DNA of 33,055 nt from Methanobacteriota archaeon. Lineage in GTDB: Archaea; Thermoplasmatota; Poseidoniia; Poseidoniales; Thalassarchaeaceae. The notes beneath the pieces are model-generated. The model saw only the letters and a list, made by a program, of their open reading frames with translations. It searched no databases and was not told the DNA's origin. The translations under genes were made by a program, and so were the position numbers. Every line of letters starts with the position of its first letter. Position 1 is the stretch's first letter. The stretch spans positions 1 to 33,055 of the forward strand of contig PSPX01000024.1 in assembly GCA_004195715.1 (NCBI GenBank), given 5' to 3'. Below are positions 10,461-14,049 of the stretch, in pieces.

Positions 10461-10469
10461 GTGATTCTA

Positions 10470-10823
10470 ATGTCTGAGAAAGAGTATGTCGACTTCGCCA
10501 CCGTCCGCGACCTGTTGGAGCAGGCCAACGAGCGCCGTGGCGAACTCTCCTACGAACAGCTCATGGCACTCGGGCACGCTCAGTGGGCGGCCAGTGAGAA
10601 TCGCGGCGGCAGGAAGACAGATCCAGAGGTCTTCAGAGGACTACGTGATGCGCTGATGGAGAACGAAAAACTCGCACCACATCCCGAGATCTGCGCCAAG
10701 TTGGCCGAACTCTGCCCTCTGATAGTGGCAGACGTCAGGGTAATCGTTGCTAGCAAGAGGATTGCGATGGACACTCCGGAGATCGAGGAACTCATCACAA
10801 TAATCCGTCAACACGTTCTCTGA
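10470..10823 (+). CDS. rpo4: DNA-directed RNA polymerase subunit Rpo4 (RpoF)
   Basis: Archaeal Rpb4 homologue of 117 residues that pairs with Rpo7 to form the polymerase stalk. The C-terminal HRDC-like helix set is recognisable: PEICAKLAELCPLIVADVRVIVASKR, then DTPEIEELITII. I take the ATG at 10470; an in-frame GTG at 10461 would touch the L21e stop. Its place directly after L21e and before a DUF655 gene is the standard archaeal order and strongly supports the call. Confidence 0.92.
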   Translation: MSEKEYVDFATVRDLLEQANERRGELSYEQLMALGHAQWAASENRGGRKTDPEVFRGLRDALMENEKLAPHPEICAKLAELCPLIVADVRVIVASKRIAMDTPEIEELITIIRQHVL

Positions 10824-10894: not shown

Positions 10895-11467
10895 ATGCAG
10901 TTCGGCGACCCCGATGAGTCCGATGAGGAAGATTCGAGCCCGTATGAATCCGAGACCCATATCAGGGTCTTAGATATGCAGGACAGACGTCCCATGGGGC
11001 ATGAGATACACGGCATCACCGAACCATCGATGCATCTGGTCCGCGCTCGAGTGAACGATTCTGGGGAGTTGTCCGAAGGCTCGAGGATGACAACCGACTC
11101 GGAATCAATCGGCCCCCTATCTGAAATCAGGCACCGAGACCTCTCTCCAGCAGCTATCAGCATACTGACAGAGGCCCTGTTGGCGACAATCTCCGAGACC
11201 CCCGAGAAGCACTTGGGATTCTACAACAGCGCCGGACCGATGTCACTGAAGTACCACGCCTTCCAGTTGCTCCCCGGTATCGGGAACTCAAAGGCATTGC
11301 AGATGGTCCAACTCCGAGGGATTGTTGGATGGAGTGATTTTGCAGCGGTTGATGAGGCCTGTGCAATCGACTCTGCTAGATTGTTGGCGGAGCGCTATGT
11401 CAAGGAGATGGAAGACGATGCCCAGACCCCTAGATTGCTCGACGTCCTAGTTCGCTCCGAGATCTGA
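10895..11467 (+). CDS. DUF655 helix-hairpin-helix nucleic-acid-binding protein
   Basis: Archaeal protein of 190 residues with an acidic N-terminus, an OB-like stretch with EPSMHLVRARV (about 43-53), and a C-terminal helix-hairpin-helix part containing KYHAFQLLPGIGNSKALQMV (about 117-136). DUF655 genes lie between rpo4 and ksgA across many euryarchaea and are thought to act on RNA, although no activity is assigned. The ATG at 10895 lacks a strong ribosome site, whereas a G-run sits at 10862-10868, so a non-ATG start a few codons upstream (a CTG near 10877) is possible. The stop is 13 bases before the ksgA ATG. Confidence 0.88.
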   Translation: MQFGDPDESDEEDSSPYESETHIRVLDMQDRRPMGHEIHGITEPSMHLVRARVNDSGELSEGSRMTTDSESIGPLSEIRHRDLSPAAISILTEALLATISETPEKHLGFYNSAGPMSLKYHAFQLLPGIGNSKALQMVQLRGIVGWSDFAAVDEACAIDSARLLAERYVKEMEDDAQTPRLLDVLVRSEI

Positions 11468-11480
11468 CCGGAGTGGGGCC

Positions 11481-12371
11481 ATGGACGACTTGGACACACG
11501 GCTCCTAGTAGACCTGCTTAGAGATCGAATTAGACCTAGCAAGGAGTTAGGCCAGCACTTCCTTGTCGATGACTCGGTCATCTCCAGATCAGTCTCTCTC
11601 GCTTCTTCTAAGGTCCCGCTGGGAGAAGATTCGCACGTCATCGAGATTGGTCCCGGTCCCGGCTCACTGACGCTGGCTCTGCTGAGGGCCGGGACCTCGG
11701 TGACCGCCTTTGAGATTGATGAAGAGGCGGTGGCCCACCTGCAACGCGTTTTCGGAGATGCTGATGGACGCCTCGAAGTGATTCTTGCTGATGCCTTGGA
11801 TATTGACTGGCCTGCGGATGCGACCCACGTGGTAGCGAACCTGCCGTATCAGATATCCAGCCCCGCAATAGAGCGAATCCAGAGGCATCATGCCGCCTAT
11901 CCCCTCGCATCCATAGTCCTCCTAGTGCAGAACGAGTTTGCCGAGAGGATGACCATCGGCAGGGATGCTTCAGCCCTCAGCCCATTGGCTCTGTCGCTTT
12001 GGCTGGATTTCGATGTCGAACTGGACGTCAAAGTGTCCCCTCACTCATTCAGTCCCTCTCCACGCGTGACTTCGCGCCTAGTGTCTCTGAATCCCGCAGA
12101 TAGGGCTCAGGGAGTGGACCGCAGGATGTTCCGAATCATCACCCAGCACTGCTTCGCCAACAAGCGCCGCAAGATGCGCACTCTGCTATCCAAGGCACCT
12201 AGCCGTTTGAGTCGCATCCGGGGCTGGCACAAGAAGCGCTGGGCAGAGGCTGTCAAGAGCATTGGACATTTGACCCAAAAAACTCTACCTGAGGGTTGGA
12301 TGGAACTCAGGCCCGAGAATCTGCAGACTTCCCACTGGGTTGCAATCGTAGAGGCAATTTCGTCCGAATGA
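11481..12371 (+). CDS. ksgA: rRNA small-subunit dimethyladenosine transferase KsgA/Dim1
   Basis: SAM-dependent enzyme that dimethylates two adjacent adenines near the 3' end of 16S rRNA during late small-subunit assembly. The 296-residue protein has the N-terminal LGQHFL motif (23-28), the SAM-binding loop VIEIGPGPGSLT (53-64), the acidic residue of motif II in FEID (77-80), and the catalytic NLPYQISSP (120-128). The C-terminal part is basic, with KRRKMRTLL, as in the family. The ATG at 11481 is preceded by GGAGTGGGG. It closes the conserved run; the hemK-type methyltransferase often found next is replaced here by an unrecognised gene. Confidence 0.96.
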   Translation: MDDLDTRLLVDLLRDRIRPSKELGQHFLVDDSVISRSVSLASSKVPLGEDSHVIEIGPGPGSLTLALLRAGTSVTAFEIDEEAVAHLQRVFGDADGRLEVILADALDIDWPADATHVVANLPYQISSPAIERIQRHHAAYPLASIVLLVQNEFAERMTIGRDASALSPLALSLWLDFDVELDVKVSPHSFSPSPRVTSRLVSLNPADRAQGVDRRMFRIITQHCFANKRRKMRTLLSKAPSRLSRIRGWHKKRWAEAVKSIGHLTQKTLPEGWMELRPENLQTSHWVAIVEAISSE

Positions 12372-12472: not shown

Positions 12473-13564
12473 ATGGCAAAGAAGGACACCTATCTTGCGC
12501 TGCTCAGACGCGGCATAGACGAGAACACCGCACACATCCTCTCTGACAGCGGGGTCAAGGTAGGCGATCTGAAGAAGTTCGACGTTACCACTCTAATCAA
12601 CAACTACGGACTCAAGAAGAAAATCGCTGAATCCGTCCTCGATGCTGTGCGCTCGGGCCCGCGCGACTCCAGCAAGCAGAGGTTTCTAGCCGATGTACTG
12701 TCCGACCGAGGTAGGAAAAAGGTCGACAAGATAGAGGAACAACGCTTCAAGCGAGAGCAGAAGGATCTACACTCTGAACTGCTCGAAAAGAAGGAGCAAC
12801 TCAGGATAGCAAAGGTCGAGGCATTTCGCAACAAGAAGTTGGTGATGAACAGGCTCGGCAAGACCATCGAACTGATTGTCAAACTGGAGAACACCTTCGA
12901 CGACGAGTCCAAGGACGAGCAACGCTCCAAATTACGCGACCAACTAGAGACCAGAGGGCTAGAGGCAGCGAGGGACCACGAGATGCTTGAACTAGTCGGG
13001 ACCCCGCAGGACATCGTCGACTTCCGCAGGAAGATTGTACCAAAGATATGCCTCCACGCATGCCCCTTATGCGGCGAGGAAATCGACCCGCTTGGAAGTA
13101 ATGTGGTTGAAGATATGACAGATTATTCACTCGTCTGTTGGGAGTGTGAGGAGGAGTTCAGAGCTCCAATGGCCCAGATTGTCGAAGACCGCTTGGCCAA
13201 TGGCTCAAGGATCAAGATCGACACGAAGAAGAAACACCGGCTGCCAGTATCTCGGAAACCGAAGAAGAAGACAACCCCCTCAGTTACCGAACAAATGTTA
13301 CGAGATCTCGAATCTACTGGCGCCTCTACTGAAGAACTTGAGGCAGCGGTCGAGTCAAGCAAACTCTCTGGAGTGCTGATGAGCATAGACGACTGGATTG
13401 ACCAAACCATAGCCGCGAAGGGCTACATCCAGGCTCAGGAGCACCGCGAGGAATTCATCATAGCAACCGGTGCGGGTGCCACGAAGTTCAACAAGTGGAT
13501 GAAAAAGGCTGGACTGGTCTTCAACAAGCAGACAGGCAGATGGACCCGCTGGGAAGACCGCTGA
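12473..13564 (+). CDS. Unrecognised zinc-ribbon protein with helix-hairpin-helix-like and coiled-coil parts
   Basis: I do not recognise this 363-residue protein. Residues 1-60 look like paired helix-hairpin-helix units (ILSDSGVKVGDLKKF, then INNYGLKKKIAESVL). Residues 80-175 are a highly charged, probably coiled-coil segment. A zinc ribbon follows (C197/C200 and C222/C225, with C193 and H195 nearby). Then come a basic linker KKKHRLPVSRKPKKK (252-266) and a C-terminal helical domain ending in aromatic residues. The composition suggests nucleic-acid or ribosome binding. It starts 101 bases after ksgA and is followed within 9 bases by a ferredoxin gene. A role in rRNA processing or DNA repair is only a guess from parts and place. 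Confidence 0.8.
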   Translation: MAKKDTYLALLRRGIDENTAHILSDSGVKVGDLKKFDVTTLINNYGLKKKIAESVLDAVRSGPRDSSKQRFLADVLSDRGRKKVDKIEEQRFKREQKDLHSELLEKKEQLRIAKVEAFRNKKLVMNRLGKTIELIVKLENTFDDESKDEQRSKLRDQLETRGLEAARDHEMLELVGTPQDIVDFRRKIVPKICLHACPLCGEEIDPLGSNVVEDMTDYSLVCWECEEEFRAPMAQIVEDRLANGSRIKIDTKKKHRLPVSRKPKKKTTPSVTEQMLRDLESTGASTEELEAAVESSKLSGVLMSIDDWIDQTIAAKGYIQAQEHREEFIIATGAGATKFNKWMKKAGLVFNKQTGRWTRWEDR

Positions 13565-13573
13565 GGCAGGTCC

Positions 13574-13873
13574 ATGTCCGAAGAGACTCCGGTTATCCGG
13601 TTCTTCCGTGGCTCGAAGCCCATGGGAACTGCCAGAGTGGTGCCAGATACTCCAATTGTAGAAATCGCTGAGTTGGCGGGAGTAGAAATTCCCACTAACT
13701 GCACCTCAGGCAACTGTGGGACCTGTCTCGTAAGACTGATCAGCGGACAGGTGGACCTACCCGATGAGCTTCCTCCCGGGATTGACGAAGATCTGGTGGC
13801 TGCTGGAGGCACGCTCACATGCTGCATCCTCCCGATAGGCTCGTGCGATATCGACTTGATACCCCCCCTGTAG
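13574..13873 (+). CDS. [2Fe-2S] plant-type ferredoxin
   Basis: Small electron carrier of 99 residues with the beta-grasp fold and the cluster ligands C43, C48, C51 (C-x4-C-x2-C in NCTSGNCGTC) and C83. The short spacing and the LVRLISGQVDLP segment match plant/cyanobacterial-type [2Fe-2S] domains as found in reductases and free ferredoxins. An extra cysteine directly after C83 is unusual but does not disturb the set. The ATG at 13574 has AGGCAGGT upstream. It is followed after 8 bases by a 55-residue membrane protein. The redox partner is not evident. Confidence 0.9.
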   Translation: MSEETPVIRFFRGSKPMGTARVVPDTPIVEIAELAGVEIPTNCTSGNCGTCLVRLISGQVDLPDELPPGIDEDLVAAGGTLTCCILPIGSCDIDLIPPL

Positions 13874-13881
13874 GTGCTTGA

Positions 13882-14049
13882 ATGGTAGATTGGACGGATA
13901 CCGAGTTTCTCGTCGTGTTGGTATTTGATATCGCTGCACTCGTAATCGCGGTCTGGTGGATTTCAGGGCGTTTCACCTCGAAGATGCGCGAAGTAGAGGA
14001 GAGGATGTCGCAAAAGGCCCCGGAAACGGCCGTTGAATCAGAGGAATGA
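13882..14049 (+). CDS. Small single-span membrane protein (55 residues)
   Basis: Short ORF starting MVDWTDTEF, with one clear transmembrane helix (about residues 9-28), a basic flank (SGRFTSKMR) and an acidic amphipathic tail ending ESEE. The ATG at 13882 has a good AGGTG ribosome site at 13872-13876 that overlaps the ferredoxin stop codon, arguing that it is translated with the ferredoxin. Its last 12 bases overlap the end of the convergent MIP18-like gene. The orientation predicted by the positive-inside rule places the tail in the cytoplasm. No family recognised; it could be a membrane anchor or a small partner of the ferredoxin. Confidence 0.65.
   Translation: MVDWTDTEFLVVLVFDIAALVIAVWWISGRFTSKMREVEERMSQKAPETAVESEE

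Follow-up and report, generated by a model that had tools for sequence, protein, structure and literature searches.

A conserved Poseidoniales-specific protein encoded downstream of ksgA is a candidate accessory factor of RNA polymerase

Directly downstream of ksgA, the window (the whole analysed stretch of 33,055 nucleotides from a Poseidoniales archaeon, contig PSPX01000024.1) carries a reading frame of 363 codons, for whose product, here called Q, a preliminary description made from the sequence alone knew no family. What is this protein, and to which cellular machinery does it belong? The frame lies exactly where that description had placed it, and Q is confirmed as a real gene (Table 1). 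The reverse strand of 12473-13564 is packed with stop codons, and nearly all relatives have full-length homologues, with matches in 57 of 60 genomes. In a search across the class, restricted to genomes at least 85% complete, Q is found in 85 of 88 MGII (Poseidoniales) genomes, as a single copy in almost all of them, and in none of the eight genomes of the sister family f3, where the two matches obtained are RpoA''. The near-universal occurrence of full-length homologues, together with dN/dS values of 0.036-0.050 compared to 0.094-0.135 for KsgA (five computable pairs), identifies Q as a genuine gene.

The expectation that no known full-length family would be hit was borne out. There is no curated family for Q: the matches in Pfam, NCBIfam and PHROGs all stay below cut-off and are mostly to zinc ribbons, and sequence and profile searches of the PDB gave no match that covers the full protein. 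No relatives of Q were found in IMG/VR, and by this search Q is not viral. A published survey of protein families in archaea lists 199 that are specific to Poseidoniales (PMC9258230); in the available part of that survey, Q is not named among them. In three assemblies (G055, G204 and G313; loci L043, L215 and L216), Q seems to carry an insertion at the near-invariant motif of residues 337-345. An intein could be ruled out here, as the insertion is a run of N with overlapping ends, a scaffold gap of about 290-340 nt, which probably reflects assembly confusion between strains.

Table 1. Features at the ksgA locus and domains of Q (positions in the window)
Feature	Position	Strand	Remarks
RpoF/Rpo4, RNA polymerase stalk subunit	10461..10823	+	Pfam Rpb4 just below cut-off; syntenic in both MGII families
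KsgA	11481..12371	+	Pfam RrnaAD; upstream neighbour of Q
Q	12473..13564	+	363 aa + stop, ATG start; Poseidoniales-specific protein
Q residues 1-61, (HhH)2 domain	12473..12655	+	homologous to N-terminal extension of RpoA'' (Thermoplasmatota) and RpoH (MGII only)
Q residues 67-192, helical region	12671..13048	+	AF2 at moderate confidence; conservation
Q residues 193-230, predicted zinc ribbon	13049..13162	+	ligands C197, C200, C222, C225; weak zinc-ribbon family matches only
Q residues 231-270, basic variable linker	13163..13282	+	predicted disordered, pLDDT <50; lowest conservation
Q residues 300-363, predicted C-terminal winged helix	13370..13561	+	near-invariant YIQAQExREdFI..TGAGATKFNKWMKKAGL.FNKQTGRW
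2Fe-2S ferredoxin	13574..13873	+	downstream neighbour of Q
55-aa hydrophobic ORF, membrane microprotein	13882..14049	+	less conserved

The position of Q is strictly conserved. In all 79 named contigs that extend far enough upstream, KsgA lies directly in front of Q; the median gap is 104 bp. Of 73 named contigs, 58 have the ferredoxin as the next gene in the orientation of Q, and where it is retained the spacing is nearly always 11-109 bp; in the other 15 this neighbour is gone while Q and KsgA remain. The proposed survey of synteny with ksgA and ferredoxin thus supports a conserved place of Q beside ksgA, and the ferredoxin and the small membrane ORF noted behind Q are both present. The gene order Pus10-L21e-rpoF-DUF655-ksgA-Q-ferredoxin is common to both MGII families. 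The DUF655 protein is encoded between rpoF and ksgA (10895-11467 in the window) and is retained in the MGII loci examined. In non-MGII Thermoplasmatota with rpoF-DUF655-ksgA, an Obg-like GTPase or a lineage gene usually comes next, and a methyltransferase follows ksgA in only one of the non-MGII neighbourhoods examined. No ksgA-hemK pair was seen in MGII, where Q and then usually ferredoxin lie downstream of ksgA. The comparison with a hemK-type methyltransferase has little meaning here, since outside MGII hemK is not the usual next gene in this phylum and ksgA mostly precedes an Obg-like GTPase or other genes.

The N-terminal domain is informative through the proteins that share it. When the full-length Q profile was run over 292 Thermoplasmatota genomes, 34 genomes outside MGII were matched, always weakly and by the N-terminus only. 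Twenty of these non-MGII loci were read, and 16 are intact RpoA'' ORFs; of the remaining four, one is an RpoA'' with a TAG in frame, another is truncated where its contig ends, and two are unrelated or were not re-found. The match at L064 is an unrelated protein. In the RpoA'' ORFs tested, Pfam RNA_pol_Rpb1_5 confirmed the assignment. Alignment by hhalign of the Q N-terminus with that of non-MGII RpoA'' starts from the first Met (E 5e-21, 32% identity), and the common 60-residue module at the extreme N-terminus is marked by MAK/RxDTxxAL.(R)RGI and two HhH-like helix pairs. Unlike RpoA'' (RpoA2), Q has no catalytic region of the polymerase and forms a protein of its own, with a helical region and a predicted zinc ribbon and winged helix. 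Within Thermoplasmatota, the front domain of Q occurs elsewhere chiefly as the N-terminal part of RNA polymerase subunits.

The structural neighbours of the Q N-terminus are RAD51-N, NusA acidic repeats (AR) and SAM domains. With the module profile, matches are obtained to Topo V, DisA, LigA, XPF and NusA HhH repeats as well as RadA and L32e; in one genome, ribosomal protein L32e carries an HhH extension of similar kind. The Pfam cut-off for HHH_5/HHH_2 is not reached (13.3 bits for Q of the window, cut-off 27), and weak matches to HHH_5 and HHH_2 are seen in 8 and 3 of 29 Q homologues, respectively. The acidic repeats of NusA and the C-terminal domain of the polymerase alpha subunit (alpha-CTD) share the (HhH)2-type fold, the former being both fold and profile neighbour, but they are bacterial, are built into another architecture and show weak sequence similarity (E ~0.02).

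The RpoA'' N-terminus varies between families. In the sister family f3, RpoA'' has about 760 aa (L056:2848-5163, L057:2917-5220), including about 250 extra residues (VEKKLGVIWSLP.GYTI...YPF.GYVYLK) between HhH module and normal A'' body, for which Pfam gave no match in L056. The extensions of some families (L052, L059, L060, L063) contain further HhH repeats and long insertions, and the whole RpoA'' ORF ranges between about 480 and 780 aa. At L069:4022-6181, the RpoA'' ORF of a 99%-complete genome is broken by one TAG in frame (ctc TAG gag), perhaps a codon read through as for pyrrolysine, perhaps an error of sequencing.

Within MGII, the module profile finds three main kinds of ORF, namely Q, RpoA'' and a third about 7.4 kb upstream of rpoA''. 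The latter is RpoH/Rpo5 (Pfam Rpb5_C) with an N-terminal extension, encoded by the first gene of rpoH-rpoB-rpoA'-rpoA'' and seen at L177:2353-2940 (contig C6 of G000), L178-L183, L188 and L190, with proteins of about 195-216 aa. Two RNA polymerase subunits and Q therefore carry the module in MGII. The RpoH open frames have about 200-250 aa in MGII, apart from a shorter one at a contig end, compared to 81-88 aa in f3, which lacks Q, so that enlarged RpoH and Q share their taxonomic range. Literature searches found no report of an HhH extension on archaeal RNA polymerase subunits, and the one on MGII RpoH is apparently undescribed. Archaeal Rpo5 is normally devoid of the jaw domain by which eukaryotic Rpb5 binds downstream DNA, and in Sulfolobales this locus is filled by Rpo13 (PMC2675907); an HhH module on RpoH would occupy the Rpb5-jaw/Rpo13 region. 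Divergent from rpoH, MGII genomes encode a methyltransferase (PrmA/MTS-like) fused to a BPL/LplA/LipB-like domain (L177:676-2055 (-), L178:467-1939 (-)).

A coarse, midpoint-rooted domain tree of 65 columns separates the modules of MGII RpoH and A'' from those of Q and non-MGII Thermoplasmatota A'' with 100/100 support. The RpoH module is related to the Q N-terminus and has the same taxonomic range, yet it groups with the MGII A'' module. Q may thus have retained an ancestral-looking A'' module, while the modules of the MGII polymerase diverged and one was copied to RpoH.

The constraint on Q points in the same direction as its module. Between the two MGII families, identity is 62% for Q and 62% for RpoA''. 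L21e (69%), RpoA' (71%) and RpoB (75%) are less diverged than Q; RpoF (55%), RpoH (55%), ferredoxin (51%) and KsgA (43%) are more diverged. By these identities, Q is constrained like a core RNA polymerase subunit, with a conservation equal to that of RpoA''. At the level of the lineage, what characterizes a polymerase subunit is found for Q: near-universal occurrence, single copy and strong constraint.

Behind the module, an AF2 model from a shallow alignment of 33 sequences, without the most divergent MGII relatives, those of the second family, gives a mean pLDDT of 61, low overall and higher at both ends. It shows a five-helix domain (1-61), helices 86-141, 148-172 and 178-193, a zinc ribbon, a linker, two short helices and an HHHEE end. 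The helical region contains the invariant blocks FRxKKLVMNRLGKTIELIVK and QLETRGLEAARDHEML.L.GTPQDI, and a fold search with the long helices returned generic coiled coils only. All four cysteines of the CPLC/CWEC pairs are invariant in 29 of 29 homologues, which is consistent with the predicted C4 zinc ribbon. The model and the conservation recover the HhH-like units, the charged helical stretch, the CPLC...CWEC ribbon and the basic linker of the preliminary description. This anatomy had missed the nature of the C-terminal domain, for which the models predict a winged helix: the HHHEE topology is obtained both for full Q and for the C-terminus alone, where the core reaches pLDDT 74-88 per ten-residue block. 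This domain is the most conserved part of Q and the linker the least. Its structural neighbours are generic (best Z 6.6 over 59 residues) and include FeoC, Stf76, cullin WHB, Z-alpha, RpoE delta and RAP30; the fold searches that had been suggested for both ends of the protein thus led to RAD51-N/NusA AR/SAM and to generic winged helices. A paralogue of the C-terminal domain was not found elsewhere in the relatives, in which two extra weak matches cover the first 40 model residues only.

Taken together, the shared module, the location in a gene block with rpoF, a constraint like that of the polymerase and the common range of Q and enlarged RpoH suggest that Q associates with RNA polymerase. We conclude that Q is probably an unrecognized part of the transcription machinery, and with somewhat better than even confidence we regard it as a Poseidoniales-specific accessory factor or subunit of the enzyme. 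Of the earlier proposal of nucleic-acid or ribosome binding, the nucleic-acid-type parts stand, but the evidence now favours the transcription machinery over the ribosome, since the N-terminal domain of Q is the module of RpoA'' and MGII RpoH. NusA AR2 and alpha-CTD offer a known example of HhH domains that make contact module to module. In Q, the N-terminal module could contact the polymerase in this way or bind nearby DNA. The zinc ribbon together with the helical region would form a rigid body on the enzyme, and the flexible basic linker would bring the winged helix to nucleic acid.

The shared module alone does not prove such an association, because HhH is a common nucleic-acid-binding module that Topo V, LigA, RadA and L32e match too, and two observations run counter to it: most of the genes immediately around Q serve translation or rRNA (KsgA, L21e, Pus10), and in the domain tree the Q module is nearer to the A'' modules outside MGII than to the A'' and RpoH modules within. 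The main rival is that Q is a factor for ribosome biogenesis or rRNA processing which acts with KsgA on the small subunit and binds rRNA through HhH, zinc ribbon and winged helix. The place immediately after ksgA in 79 of 79 contigs, the presence of L21e, Pus10 and DUF655 in the block and the extension of L32e in one genome fit this role. The block includes rpoF as well, however, the nearest relatives of the module are RNA polymerase subunits and not ribosomal proteins, and no evident change in KsgA accompanied the origin of Q in MGII. The conservation of Q also exceeds that of KsgA by far, so that a role merely as its partner is unlikely. We consider the ribosomal role weaker than one at the polymerase and on the whole fairly unlikely.

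A general DNA-binding protein of nucleoid, replication or repair, for which the module shared with the polymerase would be domain reuse, could likewise be built from HhH and winged helix. RAD51-N, Topo V, XPF and LigA among the HhH neighbours and the many DNA- and Z-DNA-binding domains among the winged-helix neighbours agree with this, but the Q profile selects RpoA'', with the same motif from the first Met, despite many other HhH proteins in these genomes, and the neighbourhood contains no replication or repair genes. We regard this as quite unlikely. The close spacing of the ferredoxin gene in nearly all loci that retain it and the resemblance of the winged helix to FeoC would suit a regulator that is not part of the core machinery, such as a transcription factor that responds to redox state or iron and is coupled to the downstream ferredoxin. 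As 15 of 73 loci keep Q and KsgA without an adjoining ferredoxin, and as typical regulators do not share the single copy, near-universal occurrence and core-subunit-like conservation of Q, such a function is very improbable.

Returning to a factor of RNA polymerase, two known proteins invite comparison. Rpo13 of Sulfolobales is a precedent for a small lineage-restricted subunit, located beside Rpo5 and clamp head (PMC2675907), but it has about 104 aa with one ordered HTH and contains neither zinc ribbon nor winged helix. TFE-alpha combines a winged helix with a zinc ribbon, as is predicted for Q; this combination is common, and TFE is missing where Q occurs. In Q, in contrast, the domain order is reversed, HhH and long helices are added and no relation in sequence was seen; within the E-value limits applied, PF02002 (TFIIE_alpha winged helix) matches neither Q nor any of 29 homologues, and Q as a TFE by sequence was rejected. 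TFE alpha and TFE beta are reported missing in Thermoplasmata (PMC4495717), and no MGII genome is among the matches listed for TFIIE_alpha above cut-off. With no recognizable TFE in MGII, a TFE-like role of Q is possible, and speculatively Q might take over part of the TFE work by stabilizing the pre-initiation complex or supporting clamp opening. It is quite unlikely that Q is a basal transcription factor that replaces the missing TFE; as such it would dock on the polymerase near the MGII-specific HhH modules of A'' and RpoH via its own HhH module and helical region, with zinc ribbon and winged helix stabilizing the open promoter complex.

Q thus appears to be a lineage-specific protein of the transcription machinery in which known folds are combined in a new arrangement. 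Archaeal transcription serves as a simple model of eukaryotic Pol II, and its parts list is regarded as almost complete. Should Q indeed be an RNA polymerase factor, one of the most conserved protein families exclusive to Poseidoniales would receive a function, and there would be a testable answer to how transcription is initiated in Thermoplasmatota without TFE. One of the archaeal groups that are most abundant in the surface ocean would then have remodelled its polymerase, with HhH modules on A'' and RpoH and a free factor that carries the same module.
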